NCBI GenBank assembly: GCA_021808525.1
Contig: JAKBBK010000009.1
Coordinates: 1-64,000 of the forward strand
From: Pseudomonadota bacterium
GTDB taxonomy: Bacteria; Pseudomonadota; Gammaproteobacteria; Burkholderiales; Burkholderiaceae_C
Reading direction: 5' to 3'
DNA length: 64,000 bases
A program made the translations under genes and the position numbers. Position 1 is the first letter of the stretch, and the number at the start of each line of letters is the position of its first letter. Positions 1,285 through 8,952 of this stretch are shown in pieces. The notes under the pieces were generated by a model. The model saw only the letters and a list, made by a program, of their open reading frames with translations. It had not been told where the DNA came from and did no database searches.

Positions 1285-1521
1285 TCAGCGCTCGACGTCG
1301 TCGAGGCCGGGCTGCGCGCGCGGCCCGGGCAGGGCGTCGCGCACATGCTCCAGGGATTCGCCGGGTTGCCAGGGCCGCCCCAGGCGCTGCTCGATGTACT
1401 CGCGGATCAGGCGACGCACCACCTGCGAGGGGGTCTGGTCCTCGCGTGCGCACAAATGCTCGAACACCTCCTTCTTGCGAGGGTCGATGAGCACGGTCAG
1501 GCGAGTGGTTCGTTGTTCCAT
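1285..1521 (-). CDS. ribbon-helix-helix (CopG/Arc-type) regulator
   Basis: This is a 78-residue basic protein. Residues 4-10 (RTTRLTV) look like the DNA-contacting beta ribbon, and residues 13-45 (PRKKEVFEHLCAREDQTPSQ onward to YIEQ) look like the two helices of a ribbon-helix-helix repressor; the remaining tail is proline-rich. An in-frame upstream start would run through the intergenic palindrome, so the ATG at 1521 is preferred. It is transcribed away from the hyf-like operon, and a perfect palindrome at 1545-1563 lies between the two starts. This suggests an autoregulator that also controls the operon. A possible -10 hexamer (TACAAT, minus strand, 1529-1534) would give an almost leaderless mRNA. 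The effector and exact target are not visible. It has no toxin partner, so I do not call it an antitoxin. Confidence 0.75.
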   Translation of the reverse strand: MEQRTTRLTVLIDPRKKEVFEHLCAREDQTPSQVVRRLIREYIEQRLGRPWQPGESLEHVRDALPGPRAQPGLDDVER

Positions 1522-1544: not shown

Positions 1545-1563
1545 ATGCACATTGCATGTGCAT
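1545..1563. promoter_or_regulatory. 19-bp palindromic operator candidate
   Basis: ATGCACATTGCATGTGCAT is a perfect inverted repeat: 8-bp arms around a TGC centre. It lies in the 64-bp space between the divergent starts of the ribbon-helix-helix gene (1521) and hyfB (1586). Two-fold operators of this size and position are typical for small ribbon-helix-helix repressors. Binding is inferred, not shown. Confidence 0.6.
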
Positions 1564-1585: not shown

Positions 1586-3631
1586 ATGGGCCCCCTGAAC
1601 TCCGTGCCGCTGCTGGGCCTGGCGCTCGGCATCGCCGGGGCCTGGGTGCTGGTCGGGCTGGCCGCGCTGTGGCGACCTCATTCCACCCGCTGGGTGGCCT
1701 TGCGGGTGTTCCCGCTGGGTGCCTTGCTGTGCGCGGCCATGGCCCTGCTGGGCCTGCTGGGGGTGTTCGCGGCTCCGCGGGAGCTGGCCCTGGCGCTGGG
1801 GGCCAGCGGCCTGGTGCTGCATTGGCGCCTGGATCCGCTGTCGGGATTTTTCCTGCTGCTGCTGGGCACTTCGGGCTTCGGCAGCACGGTGTTCGCCTGC
1901 GGCTATTTCCGCAAGGGCGAAGGGGCGCCTCCGGGGCAGATCGGCCTGCTGTACCACCTGTTCCTGGCCAGCATGACCCTGGTGCTGCTGGCGGCCGACG
2001 CTTTCGGTTTCCTGCTGGCCTGGGAGGCCATGGCCCTGGCTTCCTACCTGCTGGTGCTGACCCGCGACGATCTGCAGGAGGTGCGCGATGCCGGCTTCCT
2101 GTATTTGCTGATGGCCCACCTGGGCGCGCTGTGCCTGGTGGCGATGTTCGTGCTGCTGGCCCAGGCCCCGGGCGCCGCGGCACAGCCCGGGGCCTGGCTG
2201 CAGGGCCTGTCCTTCGCCTCCATGCGCCAGGCCGCGCCGGCGGGCTCCACGCTGGGGCTGGCCATGCTGCTGGCCGTGGTGGGCTTCGGCGCCAAGGCGG
2301 GCCTGCTGCCCCTGCATGCCTGGCTGCCCGAGGCGCACCCGGCGGCACCCTCGCCGGTGTCCGCGCTGATGAGTTCGGTGATGCTCAAGACCGCGCTGTA
2401 CGCCTTGCTGCGCGTGTCGCTGGACCTGCTGCACCTGGACAGCATGGCCTGGGGCGTGGCGCTGCTGCTGCTGGGCCTGGCCGGTGCCCTCATGGGGGTG
2501 CTGCAGGCGGCGGTGCAGGAGGACATGAAGCGCCTGCTGGCCTGGTCCTCGGTGGAGAACATGGGCCTGGCCTTCGCCGCGCTGGGCCTGGCGCTGGTGT
2601 TCCGCGCCGCGGGCATGCCGGCGCTGGCCGCGCTGGCGCTGGCGGCCATGCTGTTCCAGTTGCTGCACCACGCCATGGCCAAGAACCTGCTGTTCCTGGC
2701 CACCGGCTCGGTCATGCACGCCACCAGCCAGCGCAGCCTGGGCATGCTCGGCGGGCTGCTGCACAGCATGCCCTGGGTCGGCTGGAGCGCGCTGGTAGGC
2801 ACGCTGGCGATGGCCGGCCTTCCGCTGCTGGGGGGTTTTGTCGCCGAGTGGCTGCTGCTGCAGGCCTTCGTGCTGTCGCCCCACCTGCCGCAGCCACTGC
2901 TGGGCATGTTCGTCGCCCTGGGCGCGGCCATGCTGGTGCTGGTGGCCGCGCTGGCGGCCTTCGTGATGGTCAAGTTCTACGGCGTGGTGTTCCTGGGTCG
3001 CCCGCGCGAGCCCGCGCTGGCCCGCTCCGGGGCGCATGACGCCGGCCTCGCGCAACGCGCGGGTCTGGTGTTCCTGGCCGTGCTGTGCGTGTTGCCGGGG
3101 CTGTTTCCCGGGGTGGTGCTGCGCCTGGTGGCGCGTGCCGAGCAGCCCCTGCTGGGGCAGGTGGTGGCCTGGGGCGGGGGAATTTCGCGCCTGGCGCCCC
3201 TGTCCCCGCAGCGCGCCAGCTTCGACCCCCTGGCGCTGGTGGTGCTGGGCCTGGCGCTGACGGCCTGCGGCCTGCTGGCCGCGCATGCCTGGCGCGCCGC
3301 GCCGGCCCGCCGTGCGCCGGCCTGGGCCTGCGGGGAGGGGGCGATCAGCGCGCGCATGCAGGACAGCGCCGAGGGCTTCGGCCAGCCGGTACGGCGCCTG
3401 TTCGCGCCGCTATTCGACGTGCACAGCCAGGCCAGCGGGCCGGGGGAGCCTGCGCCACGCTACACCGAGCAGGTGCGCGACCCGCTGCGCACGCGCCTGT
3501 ACCAGCCCCTGGCCCTCGCCGTGCTGGGCCTGGCGCGGCGCGTGGGACGCCTGCAGCAGGTGGGCATGGCGGGCTACCTGCTCTACACCTTCGGCACCCT
3601 GCTGGTGCTGCTGTTGCTGGTGTTGCGCTGA
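1586..3631 (+). CDS. hyfB: HyfB-like proton-translocating antiporter subunit (NuoL family)
   Basis: This very hydrophobic 681-residue membrane protein belongs to the NuoL/M/N (Mrp-type antiporter) family and is close in length to E. coli HyfB (about 670). Family landmarks are the glutamate in LLAWEAMALAS (E147) and the lysine in GFGAKAGLLPLHAWLPEAHP (K237), both essential for proton translocation in complex I. An HAMAKNLLFLATG helix follows further on. ATG 1586 (MGPLNSVPLLG) is chosen. The earlier in-frame ATG at 1556 would lie inside the palindrome and adds a non-family leader. It is the first gene of a six-gene operon. It should form one of the two proton channels of the complex. Confidence 0.85.
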   Translation: MGPLNSVPLLGLALGIAGAWVLVGLAALWRPHSTRWVALRVFPLGALLCAAMALLGLLGVFAAPRELALALGASGLVLHWRLDPLSGFFLLLLGTSGFGSTVFACGYFRKGEGAPPGQIGLLYHLFLASMTLVLLAADAFGFLLAWEAMALASYLLVLTRDDLQEVRDAGFLYLLMAHLGALCLVAMFVLLAQAPGAAAQPGAWLQGLSFASMRQAAPAGSTLGLAMLLAVVGFGAKAGLLPLHAWLPEAHPAAPSPVSALMSSVMLKTALYALLRVSLDLLHLDSMAWGVALLLLGLAGALMGVLQAAVQEDMKRLLAWSSVENMGLAFAALGLALVFRAAGMPALAALALAAMLFQLLHHAMAKNLLFLATGSVMHATSQRSLGMLGGLLHSMPWVGWSALVGTLAMAGLPLLGGFVAEWLLLQAFVLSPHLPQPLLGMFVALGAAMLVLVAALAAFVMVKFYGVVFLGRPREPALARSGAHDAGLAQRAGLVFLAVLCVLPGLFPGVVLRLVARAEQPLLGQVVAWGGGISRLAPLSPQRASFDPLALVVLGLALTACGLLAAHAWRAAPARRAPAWACGEGAISARMQDSAEGFGQPVRRLFAPLFDVHSQASGPGEPAPRYTEQVRDPLRTRLYQPLALAVLGLARRVGRLQQVGMAGYLLYTFGTLLVLLLLVLR

Positions 3632-3647: not shown

Positions 3648-4610
3648 ATGGATTTCGTGCAATTCGCCGTCGAAGCCGCCACCCAGGTGCTCAGCGTGGC
3701 GGCGGCCTTGGCGCTGGCTCCGCTGCTGCTGGGCTGGGTGGCCCAGTGCAGGGCGTGGCTGTCCAATCGCCACGCGCCGCCGCTGGGCCAGCCTTACTGG
3801 CGCCTGCGCAAGCTGTGGCGCCGCCAGCCGGTGCTTCCCGAGGGTTCCAGCCCCTTGTTCCGGGCCGCGCCCTACGTGGTGCTGGGCTGCATGAGCGCGG
3901 CCGCCGCCATCATCCCCTCGCTGGGCGCGGGCCTGCCGCTGGCCTCGGTGGCCGACGCGATCGCCCTGGTCGGCCTGTTCGCCCTGGCGCGGGTGTTCCA
4001 GGCCCTGGCCGCGATGGACACCGGGACCGCCTTCGCCAGCCTGGGAGCTCGGCGCGAGATGATGCTGGGCTTCCTGGCCGAGCCTGCCTTGCTGATGGTG
4101 CTGTTCACCGCCTCGCAGTTCGCCGGCAGCACCCAGCTGCCGGCGCTGGCGCGGGCGCTGCATGATCACGGCCCGAGCATCCATCCCGGCCTGGCCTTCG
4201 GCGCCGTGGCCTTTGTCATGGTGCTGCTGGCCGAGAACGCGCGCCTGCCGGTGGACAACCCCAGCACCCACCTGGAGCTGACCATGATCCACGAGGCCAT
4301 GGTGCTCGAGTACTCGGGCCGCCACCTGGCGCTGATCGAATGGGCGCAGGCGCTCAAGCTCTACAACTACATGTGCATGGGCTTTGCCATGTTCGCGCCC
4401 TGGGGCATGGCCATGCCGGGGCAGGCGGCGGGCTGGCTGCTGCCCGCGCTGCCCGCGCTGCTGGCCAAGCTGGCCCTGGGCGGGGCGGGGGTGGCGCTGA
4501 TCGAGACCAGCAGCGCCAAGCTGCGCGTGTTCCGCGCGCCCGAATTCCTGGCCACGGCCTTCCTGCTGGCCGTGCTCGGCCTGTGGGTGGGCCTGATGCT
4601 GGAGCCCTGA
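3648..4610 (+). CDS. hyfC: HyfC-like membrane anchor subunit (NuoH family)
   Basis: The 320-residue protein has about eight hydrophobic helices and is the length of E. coli HyfC/HycD. The NuoH/ND1 signature is clear in the stretch starting at E196 (ENARLPVDNPSTHLE), followed by IHEAMVLEYSG. In complex I and group 4 hydrogenases this subunit couples the soluble electron-transfer arm to the membrane pumps. It lies 16 bp after hyfB and 3 bp before hyfE. The ATG at 3648 starts MDFVQFAVEAA, which matches family N termini. An open frame continues further upstream but only as a shadow inside hyfB. Confidence 0.86.
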   Translation: MDFVQFAVEAATQVLSVAAALALAPLLLGWVAQCRAWLSNRHAPPLGQPYWRLRKLWRRQPVLPEGSSPLFRAAPYVVLGCMSAAAAIIPSLGAGLPLASVADAIALVGLFALARVFQALAAMDTGTAFASLGARREMMLGFLAEPALLMVLFTASQFAGSTQLPALARALHDHGPSIHPGLAFGAVAFVMVLLAENARLPVDNPSTHLELTMIHEAMVLEYSGRHLALIEWAQALKLYNYMCMGFAMFAPWGMAMPGQAAGWLLPALPALLAKLALGGAGVALIETSSAKLRVFRAPEFLATAFLLAVLGLWVGLMLEP

Positions 4611-4613
4611 GCC

Positions 4614-5336
4614 ATGCAGCCCCTGGCCCCGATCCTCGCGCTGGCGCAACTGCCCGCGGCCCTGCAGGGCATTCACCTGTTCGCCGCGCTGTTGCTGCTG
4701 CTGTCCTTCGCCATGTTGTCGCAGCGCCGCGTGATGGGCCTGATCTGGCTGTTCGCCTGGCAGGGGGCGCTGCTCGCGGGCAGCTCCGTGCTGGTGGCCT
4801 GGAGCACCGGGCAGTCCGAGCTGTACGGCTCGGCGCTGCTGGCCCTGGTGCTCAAGGTGCTGGTGCTGCCCTGGGTGCTGCTGCGACTGACGCGGCGCCT
4901 GCACGCGCAATGGGACATCGAGCCCTTGCTGAACATCCCGGGCATGCAACTCATCGGCATGGCGCTGGTGCTGTTCGCCTTCGCGCTGGCGCAGCCGCTG
5001 GAGTCCCTGGCCCACGGCGCCACGCGCGGCCTGCTGGGCATCGCCATGGCGGTGGTGTTCCTGGCGCTGCTCATGATGATCAGCCGGCGCAACGCGATCG
5101 CGCAGGTGCTGGGCTTCCTGTCGCTGGAAAACGGCCTGCTGTTCGCCGCCACCGCGGCCACGCGCGGCATGCCCATGGTGGTCGAACTGGGCATCGGCCT
5201 GGACCTGCTGGTGGGGGTGTTCATCCTGGGCGTGTTCGTGCTGCGCATCCGCGAGCAGTTCGACAGCCTGGAGTTGCCCCAGGAAGCCGCGGCGGAGCCC
5301 GCCACCCGCCTGCCCGCCGCGAGCGAGGAGTCCTGA
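4614..5336 (+). CDS. hyfE: HyfE-like membrane subunit (NuoK-related)
   Basis: The 240-residue protein has about six or seven hydrophobic segments. It contains an acidic residue within a membrane stretch (FLSLENGLLFAATAA) and the motif VELGIGLDLLVGVFILGVF, both typical of HyfE/HycP proteins that extend the NuoK fold. It is slightly longer than E. coli HyfE (about 216) because of an alanine- and glutamate-rich cytoplasmic tail. It starts 3 bp after hyfC and ends 2 bp before hyfF, so the genes are almost certainly translated together. Confidence 0.83.
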   Translation: MQPLAPILALAQLPAALQGIHLFAALLLLLSFAMLSQRRVMGLIWLFAWQGALLAGSSVLVAWSTGQSELYGSALLALVLKVLVLPWVLLRLTRRLHAQWDIEPLLNIPGMQLIGMALVLFAFALAQPLESLAHGATRGLLGIAMAVVFLALLMMISRRNAIAQVLGFLSLENGLLFAATAATRGMPMVVELGIGLDLLVGVFILGVFVLRIREQFDSLELPQEAAAEPATRLPAASEES

Positions 5337-5338
5337 GC

Positions 5339-6832
5339 ATGGGAGGGTCTTCCTGGTTCGCCTACCTGCCGGCGGCGGTGCTGGCGCTGCCCCTGGTGGG
5401 GGCGGCCATGCTGGGCTGGCTGGGCCTGCGGCGCGGCGCCGAATACCTGAACCTGGCCTTCAGCGTGCTGGGTTTCGCGCTGGCCTGCCTGCTGGGCCTG
5501 GCGGTCGCGCTGGGCGGGCCGCTGCTGGCGCTGGGCCAGCAGTTGTACGCGGATGCGCTGAACACCTACCTGGTGCTGCTGACCACCTTCGTGGCGGCCG
5601 GCACCGCCGCCTTCTCGGTGCCCTACATGCGCGTGGAGCAGGCCGCCGGCCGTCTGGGCGGGCAGCGCCTTCGCCTGTACCACGGCATGTTCCAGCTGTT
5701 CGTGTTCACCATGCTGCTGGCGCTGCTGAGCAACAACCTGGGTCTGCTGTGGGTGGCGATGGAGGCGGCCACGCTGGCCACCGTGTTGCTGGTGTCGCTG
5801 TACCGCAGTCCCGCCGGCCTGCAGGCGGCGTGGAAGTACTTCATCCTGTGCGGCGTGGGCCTGGCCCTGGCGCTGTTCGGCACCGTGCTGGTCTATGCGG
5901 CGGCCGAGCGCGTGCTGGGCGGGCAGGGCGCGCAGGCGCTGCTGTGGACCCGGCTGGCCGCGGCGCGTGGCGCGCTGGCCCCGGCGGCGATGAGCGTGGC
6001 CTTCGTGTTCGTGCTCGTGGGCTACGGCACCAAGGTGGGACTGGTGCCCCTGCACAGCTGGCTGCCCGACGCCCATGCCGAGGGGCCGACCCCGGTGTCG
6101 GCCGTGCTTTCCGGGCTGTTGCTCAACGTGGCCCTGTACGCGGTGCTGCGCATGCGGGTGCTGGTCGAGGGCAGCGTGCACGCGGCCTGGCCGGGCCTGC
6201 TGCTGCAGGGTTTCGGCCTGCTCTCGGTGTTGACCGCCTCGCTGCTGCTGTGGCGCCAGAAGGACGCCAAGCGGCTGTTCGCCTGGTCGTCCATCGAGCA
6301 CATGGGCCTGGCCAGCTTCGGCTTCGGCCTGGGCACGCCCCTGGCGAGTTTCGCGGCGCTGCTGCACCTGAGCGTGCATGCGCTGACCAAGAGCGCGATC
6401 TTTTTCAGCGTGGGGCATGCGTCGCAAAAGGCCGGCTCGCCGCGCCTGGACGACATCCGCGGCCTGCGCGCCCGCTCGCCCGCGCTGGGATGGCTGTTGC
6501 TGCTGGGGGCGCTGGCCATCGTCGGCCTGCCGCCCTTCGGCGTGTTCACCAGTGAATTCCTGATCCTGGGCAGTGCCTTGCAGACGGCGCCATGGAGCGT
6601 GGCGCCCCTGCTGCTGGGCCTGCTGGTGGCGCTGGCCGCGGTGCTGTGGCGGGTGCAGGCCATGGTGTTCGGGCGCGAGCAGGAGCCTCGTCTGCGCAGC
6701 CTGCCGCAGCGTCCCTGGCTGGCGCCGGCCTGGCTGCACCTGGGCCTGGTGCTGTTGCTGGGCTTGTGGATCCCGGGCCTGCTGGCGCAGGCCTGGCGTG
6801 CCGCGGCCCTGGTGCTGGGGAGCCCGACATGA
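5339..6832 (+). CDS. hyfF: HyfF-like proton-translocating antiporter subunit (NuoM/N family)
   Basis: The 497-residue hydrophobic protein is the second antiporter-like subunit of the operon. It has the conserved glutamate in VAMEAATLATVLLV (E142) and lysine in GYGTKVGLVPLHSWLPDAHA (K232), then RLFAWSSIEHMGL. The ATG at 5339 is 2 bp after the hyfE stop, and its TGA overlaps the hyfG ATG. The third antiporter found in E. coli hydrogenase-4 (HyfD) is absent here. With hyfB this would give two proton channels. Confidence 0.85.
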   Translation: MGGSSWFAYLPAAVLALPLVGAAMLGWLGLRRGAEYLNLAFSVLGFALACLLGLAVALGGPLLALGQQLYADALNTYLVLLTTFVAAGTAAFSVPYMRVEQAAGRLGGQRLRLYHGMFQLFVFTMLLALLSNNLGLLWVAMEAATLATVLLVSLYRSPAGLQAAWKYFILCGVGLALALFGTVLVYAAAERVLGGQGAQALLWTRLAAARGALAPAAMSVAFVFVLVGYGTKVGLVPLHSWLPDAHAEGPTPVSAVLSGLLLNVALYAVLRMRVLVEGSVHAAWPGLLLQGFGLLSVLTASLLLWRQKDAKRLFAWSSIEHMGLASFGFGLGTPLASFAALLHLSVHALTKSAIFFSVGHASQKAGSPRLDDIRGLRARSPALGWLLLLGALAIVGLPPFGVFTSEFLILGSALQTAPWSVAPLLLGLLVALAAVLWRVQAMVFGREQEPRLRSLPQRPWLAPAWLHLGLVLLLGLWIPGLLAQAWRAAALVLGSPT

Positions 6833-8412
6833 GCCGCGGCGCGATCGCCTCGGACGCCCGCGCCTGGGAAGGCCTGGGCCTGCGGCTCGAGGCCGCGGAC
6901 GTGGATGCGCTGCAATGGGCCGAGCTGGCCCGGCGCATGCACGAGCGCGGCGCGCGACTGCTCAGCCTGTGGGGCGAGCAGTGGGGGCCGGCCCTGCCGC
7001 GCGGGCCTGCGCCCGGCTCCGACCAGGCAGCCGCGAGCGGCTTCGCCGTGCTCGCGCTGTGGCTGCACGAGCAGGGCCTGCAACTCGCCGGCTTGCGGCT
7101 TCCACCCAGCCTGCTGTATCCCGGCCTGCACGAGGCCTTCCCCGTGGCGTCGCGCCTGCAGCGCGCCTTGCGCGACCTGCTCGGACCCCAGGCGCAGGGC
7201 ATGGATCCGCGCCCGTGGTTGCGCCACGGCGCCTGGCCCGCCGACTGGCAGCCCCTGCGCGCCGGCGCGGGAGAGCGCCCGCCGGCGCCGCCGCCCGAGG
7301 CCTACGCCTACGTGCCGGTGCAGGGGCGCGGGGTGCACGAGATCGGCGTGGGTCCCGTGCACGCCGGCATCATCGAGCCGGGCCAGTTCCGCTTCTCGGT
7401 GCTGGGCGAACAGGTGCTGCGCCTGGAGCAGCGCCTGGGCTGGACCCACAAGGGCGTGGCAAGGCTGCTGCGCGGGCGCGACGCCGAGGGCACCGTGCGC
7501 CTGGGCGCGCGCCTCAGCGGAGACAGCACGGTGGCCGGGGCCTGGGCCACCTGCATGGCCCTGGAGAGCGCCGCGGGGGTGGAGATTCCGCGCCGGGCGC
7601 TGTGGCTGCGCGCGCTGCTGCTCGAGCGCGAACGCATCGCCAACCACCTGGGGGATATCGGCGCCATCGCGGGCGACACCGGGCTGGCCTTCGGCCTTTC
7701 GCAGTTCTCCCTGCTCAAGGAGCAGGTGCTGCGCGCGAACCTGCGGGCCTTCGGCGCGCGCTGGCCGATGGACGCGCTGTGCCCGGGGGGCGTGCGCTGC
7801 GATCCCGGCGAGCAGGCGCTGCGCGAACTCGACGAACAATGCCTGAGCCTGCGCGCCGACGCGCGGGTGCTGCTGGCGGCCTTCGAACAGCACGCCGGCC
7901 TGCAGGACCGACTGCGCGGCACCGGGCGGGTGGAGCCCGAACTGGCGCGCGGCCTGGGCATGCTGGGGCTGGCCGGGCGCGCCAGCGGGCAGGCGCTGGA
8001 CCTGCGCGCGCGCATGGCGCCCTACGATCGCCTGGAGCTGCGCGTTGCCGTGCACGCGGGCGGCGACGTGGCCGCGCGCGTGGCCCAGCGCTTCGACGAA
8101 CTGTTCGAGTCCTTGCGCCTGTGTCGCGAATGGCTGCGCACCCTGCCCGAGGGAGCCCTGCGCGCGGCCTGGCCGGAACAAGCCACGGCCTGTGCGGGCG
8201 GGTGGGCGCTGGGCCTGGTCGAGGGCTGGCGCGGCCCCGTGCTGGTGGCGCTGCGCATGGGCGGCGACGGAAGGGTCGAGCAGGCGCATGCGCACGATCC
8301 CTCGTGGCAGAACTGGCCGGCGGTGGAATGGGCCGCGGCCCGCGACATCGTGGCCGATTTTCCCTTGATCAACAAGTCCTTCAACCTGTCCTACTCAGGG
8401 CACGACGGTTGA
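6829..8412 (+). CDS. hyfG: HyfG-like large subunit lacking all NiFe-ligand cysteines
   Basis: The 527-residue protein has a degenerate NuoC-like N-terminal part (about 1-155) and a NuoD/[NiFe]-hydrogenase large-subunit part (about 160-527). Real group 4 hydrogenases have RxCGxC near the start of this domain and DPCxxC near its end. Here the matching places read RLSGDS (228-233; cysteines replaced by S230 and S233) and NLSYSG (519-524; replaced by S521 and G524). The surrounding family sequence is well kept (IPRRALWLRALLLERERI, DFPLINKSFN). A NiFe site therefore cannot form as in hydrogenases. This defines the Ehr class of complexes. Its start overlaps the hyfF stop (ATGA). Substrate and electron partner are unknown. 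Confidence 0.88.
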   Translation: MSRGAIASDARAWEGLGLRLEAADVDALQWAELARRMHERGARLLSLWGEQWGPALPRGPAPGSDQAAASGFAVLALWLHEQGLQLAGLRLPPSLLYPGLHEAFPVASRLQRALRDLLGPQAQGMDPRPWLRHGAWPADWQPLRAGAGERPPAPPPEAYAYVPVQGRGVHEIGVGPVHAGIIEPGQFRFSVLGEQVLRLEQRLGWTHKGVARLLRGRDAEGTVRLGARLSGDSTVAGAWATCMALESAAGVEIPRRALWLRALLLERERIANHLGDIGAIAGDTGLAFGLSQFSLLKEQVLRANLRAFGARWPMDALCPGGVRCDPGEQALRELDEQCLSLRADARVLLAAFEQHAGLQDRLRGTGRVEPELARGLGMLGLAGRASGQALDLRARMAPYDRLELRVAVHAGGDVAARVAQRFDELFESLRLCREWLRTLPEGALRAAWPEQATACAGGWALGLVEGWRGPVLVALRMGGDGRVEQAHAHDPSWQNWPAVEWAAARDIVADFPLINKSFNLSYSGHDG

Positions 8413-8439: not shown

Positions 8440-8952
8440 ATGTGGCACATTCTTCGCAGGGTCGCACGCGTCGGCCTGGTGCCGACCGAGCCGGTGCCCG
8501 AGCCCGCCGCGACCGCCGCCGCGCGCGAGGACCTGGACGCCGAGCTGCTGCGCCTGCTGGGGCGCGCGCTGGCCGTTCGCCTGGTCGATGCCGGCTCCTG
8601 CAACGGTTGCGAGTTCGAGCTCAACGCTCTGGGCAACGCCCACTACAACCTCGAGGGTCGCGGGGTGCATTTCGTCGCCAGTCCGCGCCATGCCGACTTG
8701 CTGCTGGTGACCGGGCCGGTGAGCCTGCACATGCGCGACGCGCTGCTGCGCACCTACGAGGCCATGCCCGAGCCGCGCCTGGTGGTGGCGGTGGGCGACT
8801 GCGCGGATTGCGGCGGCGAGTTCGCCGGCAGCTACGCGGTATGCGGCGGCGTGGATGCCGTGCTGCCGGTGGACCTGCGCATTCCGGGCTGTCCGCCAAG
8901 CCCGCTGCAGGTGCTGCAGGGCCTGCTGCAGGTGCTGCGCCGAGCGGGTTGA
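8440..8952 (+). CDS. hyfI: HyfI-like [4Fe-4S] subunit (NuoB family)
   Basis: The 170-residue protein belongs to the NuoB/small hydrogenase subunit family. Four cysteines are in the right motifs for one [4Fe-4S] cluster: C54 and C57 (GSCNGCEFEL), C121 (GDCADCGG) and C151 (IPGCPPSPLQ). The CxxC spacing is that of hydrogenases, not the CC pair of complex I. It is shorter than E. coli HyfI (about 250) and ends soon after the last motif. It lies 27 bp after hyfG and closes the operon. The intact cluster beside a NiFe-less large subunit implies electrons still enter or leave here. The convergent mnmH gene ends 25 bp downstream. Confidence 0.86.
   Translation: MWHILRRVARVGLVPTEPVPEPAATAAAREDLDAELLRLLGRALAVRLVDAGSCNGCEFELNALGNAHYNLEGRGVHFVASPRHADLLLVTGPVSLHMRDALLRTYEAMPEPRLVVAVGDCADCGGEFAGSYAVCGGVDAVLPVDLRIPGCPPSPLQVLQGLLQVLRRAG

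Follow-up and report, generated by a model that had tools for sequence, protein, structure and literature searches.

A six-gene operon of a Burkholderiales bacterium putatively encodes an Ehr-type relative of complex I and hydrogenase-4, of the same kind as Hyq of Azorhizobium caulinodans

The window analysed here is a stretch of 64,000 nucleotides from a Pseudomonadota bacterium of the order Burkholderiales (GenBank assembly GCA_021808525.1, contig JAKBBK010000009.1, positions 1 to 64,000). It carries an operon of six hyf-like genes, hyfB to hyfI, on the plus strand. Judged by its sequence, its product is not a [NiFe] hydrogenase but a complex of six subunits, related to complex I and hydrogenase-4, of the energy-converting hydrogenase related (Ehr) type and of the same kind as Hyq of Azorhizobium caulinodans. 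Ehr complexes, described as widespread and of unknown function, are defined as sets of group 4-type subunits in which the NiFe ligands are missing (PMC6349859, PMC10284858), and the term is used alike in PMC7894505, PMC10432482, and PMC6728331; the predicted products of the operon, group 4-type subunits with the NiFe ligands gone, correspond to this definition. The Ehr-type complex itself is thus already known, and new here are its link to Hyq, a cysteine-free clade, and a probable regulator.

The hyfB-like gene (1586..3631) encodes an antiporter-like membrane subunit of 681 amino acids (aa) and matched NCBIfam hydrogenase 4 subunit B with 702.7 bits (cut-off 667). Its open reading frame (ORF) is open from 1556, although the ATG at 1586 is the likelier start. 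The hyfC-like gene (3648..4610, 320 aa) encodes a NuoH-like membrane subunit (Pfam NADHdh, 5.4e-28), and the hyfE-like gene (4614..5336, 240 aa) a small membrane subunit. The latter had no match in the Pfam profile search, and its match to the NCBIfam hydrogenase 4 membrane subunit (1.1e-23, 84.2 bits) lies below the curated cut-off of 136. The hyfF-like gene (5339..6832, 497 aa) encodes a second antiporter-like membrane subunit (NCBIfam hydrogenase 4 subunit F, 3.1e-206). It is overlapped at its end by 4 bases by the hyfG-like gene (6829..8412), which encodes a large subunit of the hydrogenase/NuoCD type, translated as 527 aa with no internal stops. The hyfI-like gene (8440..8952, 170 aa) encodes a NuoB-like small subunit (Pfam Oxidored_q6, 7.5e-29). 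The starts of hyfC and hyfF are likewise more probably 3648 and 5339; their residues are numbered here from 3645 and 5336. In Pfam and NCBIfam together, all six genes fall into hydrogenase-4/complex I families, hyfE only under the curated cut-off. Among 80 genome-contig loci compared, 72 gave matches to all six subunits, and in 69 of these the order is B-C-E-F-G-I on one strand. In the other three the HyfB label sits on another ORF, because the contig starts too near to hold hyfB. No seventh operon gene was found in an all-against-all comparison of the neighbours of the 80 loci with a rough gene caller.

In the alignment with HycE and HyfG of E. coli K-12, the columns of HycE C241, C244, C531, and C534 are occupied by S230, S233, S521, and G524 of the window HyfG. 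The motifs RLSGDS and NLSYSG, read at these sites in the initial annotation, were thereby borne out. The replacement was followed in 141 homologues, taken one per locus with the window's own copy included; these are not independent, as some genomes may repeat one organism, and 127 are mutually less than 90% identical. Exactly S/S/S/G occurs in 114 of the 141, one of the four ligand cysteines is kept in 11, and two or more are kept in none. The same replacement was also seen across 111 homologous ORFs in a separate alignment. A sequencing error is excluded, because the identical replacement stands in other genomes, and the replaced ligands are confirmed as a family-wide trait. In hydrogenases, the C-terminal tail is removed following nickel insertion. 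Exactly three residues follow the fourth ligand column in all 141 homologues, as in NuoCD, while E. coli hydrogenase-3 and -4 (HycE and HyfG; formate hydrogenlyase), which have the ligands, carry 35 more. Metal ligands and maturation signal are therefore both gone. D232, D276, D490, and K516 of HyfG are invariant across the 141 homologues, and this invariant polar set is unlike that of both hydrogenase and complex I. At one locus, from Ramlibacter sp. WS9, the first hyfG-like ORF has a divergent second one upstream (L063:1836-3962, 199 bits); an odd alignment row, VETIVGDSSIA / CNKSFDLSYCGNDL, probably represents this second ORF.

The remaining subunits are well kept, as had been claimed from the sequence at first sight, and each of the other five is a single open frame. 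The ratio of nonsynonymous to synonymous substitutions (dN/dS) over the six genes is 0.06–0.37 (Nei-Gojobori, against five relatives), which indicates purifying selection. Single stops in the HyfB alignments of two loci (L034 and L035) precede the likely start, standing at alignment position 2. In HyfB, E157, K247, K325, and E431 (numbered from 1556) are present in 68 of 68 rows, and in HyfF, E143, K233, K312, and E407 (numbered from 5336) in 134–135 of 135; we take these E, K, K, and E residues to have pump roles. A loop of HyfC, the membrane subunit next to the large subunit, holds the family-specific H209, H216, R226, H227, and E232 in all 71 rows (numbered from 3645). In HyfI, C54, C57, C121, and C151 are the predicted ligands of one [4Fe-4S] cluster, as in the N2-type subunit of complex I. 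They are found in 134–135 of 135 rows, and the first two form a CxxC motif, like their counterparts in E. coli HyfI. With conservation this strong and with new residues fixed, the complex is therefore predicted to do another energy-related job.

The operon resembles complex I in its NuoCD-like fusion, NuoB-like cluster subunit, and antiporter-like arm. It differs in having no NADH module, no NuoI, and no His/Tyr quinone pair. Four membrane subunits are encoded, fewer than the seven of complex I. Compared with E. coli hydrogenase-3 and -4, genes for HyfA, HyfD, HyfH, and HyfJ are missing inside the operon.

Among relatives studied by experiment, Hyq of Azorhizobium caulinodans is the closest. 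The hyqRBCEFGI operon is described as encoding an endo-hydrogenase of the nif regulon without hyfA and hyfD (PMC2650096), reported to be under NifA/sigma54 control (PMC2650096, PMC3357923). Hyq and the window operon have the same six subunits in the order B-C-E-F-G-I. The regulatory surroundings differ: Hyq carries hyqR, while upstream of the window operon no sigma54 site was found and an RHH_9 gene is the neighbour; in its genome no nifH was found. For HyqG of eight genera, a paper of 2012 states that both CxxC motifs are missing and three cysteines are conserved instead, and it judges a Ni,Fe site "uncertain, if not unlikely" (PMC3357923); since it states the loss of CxxC, the missing ligands are already in print for the Hyq family. 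The copy on pRL11 of Rhizobium johnstonii 3841 has no HyfH gene, like the window operon, and reads S/S/S/G at the ligand columns. Its HyqG is 504 aa long, ends in NKSFNCSYSGHDL, and is 43.6% identical over window residues 25–526. No printed link between Hyq and Ehr-type complexes was found in a search of open-licence PMC literature. PMC6950771 was rejected as a joint paper on hyq and ehr, as both words are entries in a tripeptide list.

The three Hyq cysteines separate the two groups. C258, C491, and C497 of Azorhizobium HyqG, and likewise cysteines 259, 491, and 497 of R. johnstonii 3841, align with A, I, and L of the window HyfG. All three are present in 20 of the 141 homologues, two in 8, and none in 113. 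No mechanism based on the Hyq cysteines can therefore hold for the window clade. In a tree from a quick search, supported by the Shimodaira–Hasegawa-like approximate likelihood ratio test (SH-aLRT) only, 113 rows including the window and its own copy split from the Hyq-like rows with 99% support. Only this split was used, because the NuoCD branch is very long. The 21 genomes with Hyq-like matches have nifH over the cut-off in 7 and HypD in 10; with nifH passing in just these 7, Hyq-like copies also occur outside diazotrophs. The three cysteines are missing from the matches in two of the 21 (G435 and G247), the first of which belongs to the window clade. Eight loci (L139–L145 and L147, families f76 and f96), from genomes of 1.5–3 Mb of the same phylum, form a clade of their own in which two of the three Hyq cysteines are present (C-N-C, in one case C-V-C).

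Maturation genes were followed across the order. No HypD was found in the window's genome, which is 90% complete, and neither were nifH (TIGR01287, E <= 1e-30), RuBisCO, or rnfC. There were no PF00374 matches over the cut-off and hence no hydrogenase over the cut-off. Two PF00142 matches (38.6 and 31.8 bits, above the Pfam cut-off) were rejected as nifH, because their best NCBIfam matches are MinD/ParA, under curated cut-offs, and they reach 38 and 32 bits for nifH against a cut-off of 394. A HyfG homologue at E <= 1e-40 was taken to define carriers, which are 57 of 200 genomes of the order, including one (G190) with a match of just 31% identity, possibly a genuine group 4 enzyme. HypD is missing in 25 of the 57, and in 15 of the 43 with completeness of at least 95%. 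This argument is of the same kind as that printed for mycobacteria (PMC6728331). Together with the family-wide loss of ligands, the absent tail, the low dN/dS, and the conserved residues of membrane arm and Fe-S cluster, it backs the initial annotation of a maintained, Ehr-type, non-hydrogenase relative of complex I. In raw counts uncorrected for kinship, HypD is found in 32/57 carriers and 31/143 non-carriers, nifH over the cut-off in 19/57 and 8/143, RuBisCO in 41/57 and 44/143 (strong matches only, 37 and 35), and rnfC in 32/57 and 33/143. This enrichment suggests lithotrophic or microaerobic lineages. In five genomes hyfG and rnfC lie about 14–20 kb apart on one contig (G045 C96, G033 C79, G078 C59, G050 C5, and G095 C1); either inherited synteny or a clustering of electron-transfer complexes could account for this.

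The function tentatively preferred is electron transfer through a single cluster, coupled to ion movement, between a low-potential carrier and an organic acceptor that is probably ubiquinone. A soluble one-electron carrier, ferredoxin or flavodoxin, would dock on HyfI, because no NuoI/HyfH, HyfA, or NADH module is encoded alongside. Electrons would then pass via the one cluster to the acceptor, held in the former Ni-Fe pocket by D232, D276, D490, N515, K516, and N519. A conformational change would drive H+ (or Na+) through HyfC, HyfE, HyfF, and HyfB. The reverse, from quinol to ferredoxin at the expense of the proton-motive force, is conceivable, and the proton-motive force would set the direction. 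More doubtful is the wider proposal that Hyq and the window operon form one family, in which these six residues are a third, metal-free active site of a reversible, proton-coupled ferredoxin:quinone oxidoreductase. If it is true, the "endo-hydrogenase" of Azorhizobium would be an electron-balancing complex, its H2 phenotype arising indirectly via nitrogenase or another NifA-dependent source. The best guess for the complex is a ferredoxin:quinone oxidoreductase.

Several observations weigh against a ferredoxin:quinone oxidoreductase. In complex I, the quinone head group is bound by a His/Tyr pair in the 49-kDa subunit; the corresponding NuoCD columns are I182 and G231 in the window HyfG, and the pair is absent. 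It is the alignment that suggests that the invariant residues share one pocket, and the structural model of HyfG is weak in parts of 158–206 and at 523–527. The structural comparison re-examined the 1000 best chains from Foldseek. The operon brings no gene for a ferredoxin or another donor of electrons. None of nifH, HypD, RuBisCO, and rnfC occurs in 17 of the 57 carriers, the window's genome among them, and no partner is singled out, because all four genes are enriched in carriers. The published Hyq mutants behave as though Hyq both makes and uses H2, and its authors conclude that it is a bidirectional hydrogenase (PMC3357923).

An oxidoreductase for another small substrate bound in the polar pocket, such as a sulfur species, formate/CO2, or a metabolite, is an unlikely alternative. 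It would suit a polar set that differs from those of hydrogenase and complex I. Mbx of Pyrococcus is a sulfur reductase. That enzyme is also cited as a ferredoxin:NADP oxidoreductase (PMC6349859), and a link to formate dehydrogenase is proposed for other Ehr complexes (PMC6349859). However, among the neighbours in the 80 loci, with genes named by eye, no dehydrogenase or sulfur gene was prominent as conserved, and the spread of the carriers yields no common substrate.

A redox-inactive ion transporter or antiporter, with the peripheral subunits kept as a structural or sensory part, seems rather improbable. The membrane arm is complete and conserved and the electron-input module is absent, as such a transporter would have it, but the invariant Fe-S cysteines of HyfI and the invariant pocket residues would be unneeded without redox chemistry.

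Quite improbable is a reversible H2:quinone oxidoreductase that still handles H2 at a non-NiFe site, as proposed for Azorhizobium Hyq. The shared subunits and gene order speak for it, as does the enrichment of carriers for HypD and nifH. According to PMC3357923, the delta-hyqRI mutant at 20 µM O2 gave 175 pmol H2 per 10^9 cells per min against 12 in the parent, about 15-fold more. Below 1 µM O2, the H2 evolution reported there is 7,100 for the parent, 61,000 for delta-hupSL, 2,600 for delta-hyqRI, 14,000 for the hupSL-hyqRI double mutant, 56,600 for nifK delta-hupSL, and 1,100 for nifA; high microaerobic evolution thus needs hyq and occurs in a nifK mutant. The phenotype may nevertheless be indirect, because the deletion also took hyqR and the published strain list holds no nifK delta-hyq mutant (PMC2650096, PMC3357923), and the authors report a further NifA-dependent source of H2 (PMC3357923). 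The values for a hyq mutant on N2 are 8.8 versus 7.2 h, and with 20% H2 5.0 versus 4.2 h, so the diazotrophic growth deficit persisted at saturating H2 (PMC2650096). The H2 values behind the claim for Hyq were measured on cultures (PMC3357923). Furthermore, the window HyfG lacks cysteine both at the four [NiFe] columns and at the three Hyq sites, seven candidate positions in all, and its genome has no HypD, nifH, or hydrogenase over the cut-off. A decaying hydrogenase operon or a sequencing artefact is hardly credible for this clade: the ligands are lost, and for Geobacter a paper of 2026 describes the Ehr as nonfunctional and expected to drift (PMC13194489), but the frames are open, dN/dS is low in all six genes, and the same replacement, with new invariant residues, stands in 141 homologues.

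The tie between the window clade and Hyq joins two literatures: Ehr gains a mutant phenotype, and Hyq gains an objection based on sequence. If the ferredoxin:quinone oxidoreductase is real, many bacteria possess, besides the usual one, a small second complex I that serves electrons of low potential.

Ehr complexes of Geobacter, comammox Nitrospira, ammonia-oxidising archaea, Riflemargulisbacteria, and mycobacteria are likewise group 4-like with the ligands gone, as compared by published description only. The Geobacter cluster is GSU0739-45 according to its paper, and its likeness to the window operon is likewise taken from descriptions. The remark that the same six subunit types occur in Rv0081-Rv0087 of Mycobacterium tuberculosis agrees with the description in PMC6728331, where the region is a possible operon of hyc-family genes homologous to EHR complexes, held not to be a hydrogenase because assembly genes are missing. 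An actinobacterial version is found on plasmid pRZP3 of Rhodococcus sp. ZPP (L149), which carries the six genes in the order I-B-C-E-F-G, with RISGDTT / TNKSFNLSYAGNDL as motifs. Behind the pRZP3 operon come an IS110 transposase gene, on the opposite strand, and at a greater distance integrase genes.

A ribbon-helix-helix (RHH) protein of 78 aa (RHH_9, Pfam PF19839, E=1.1e-23), encoded at 1285..1521 on the minus strand, is the probable regulator of the operon. Between its gene and hyfB lies a perfect inverted repeat, ATGCACAT-TGC-ATGTGCAT (1545..1563), the probable operator. The core of the palindrome, CACATNNNATGTG, is found a single time in the window (expected 0.04) and once each in 10 of 151 loci; in all ten it lies 27–59 bp away from the start codon of the RHH gene, towards hyfB. 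Among the 57 loci that have a called hyfB start and no less than 650 bp of upstream sequence, 27 have an RHH homologue within 600 bp of hyfB (an overlap of at most 120 bp with the called start was also accepted), of which 23 are divergent and 4 codirectional; elsewhere in the 1.04 Mb of these loci there are three further matches. Thiomonas-like relatives share the RHH gene and the palindrome core, and distant relatives have the gene without the exact core. In the comparison of gene neighbours the RHH gene appeared at only 7 loci; it was recognised by reading the upstream sequence. In 58 sequences including the window, no sigma54 site scoring at least 9/10 was found within 400 bases before hyfB, where scores are like those of shuffles. 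An Fnr-type box of 9/10 occurs in three of these 58 regions (0.4% in shuffled sequences), too few to be general. Regulator and operator together would give a handle on when the complex is made.

The window starts with a 5S rRNA gene (9–121), followed by dusA (253–1260; Pfam/NCBIfam). No tRNA genes were detected across the 64 kb. A first comparison of neighbouring genes was discarded, as shadow ORFs of GC-rich DNA dominated it. In the comparison of the 80 loci, the neighbours named by eye as housekeeping genes are scpA (13 loci), a rhodanese/selenouridine-synthase-like gene (12), metG (10), dusA (9), rpsB (7), and mrp/apbC (7).

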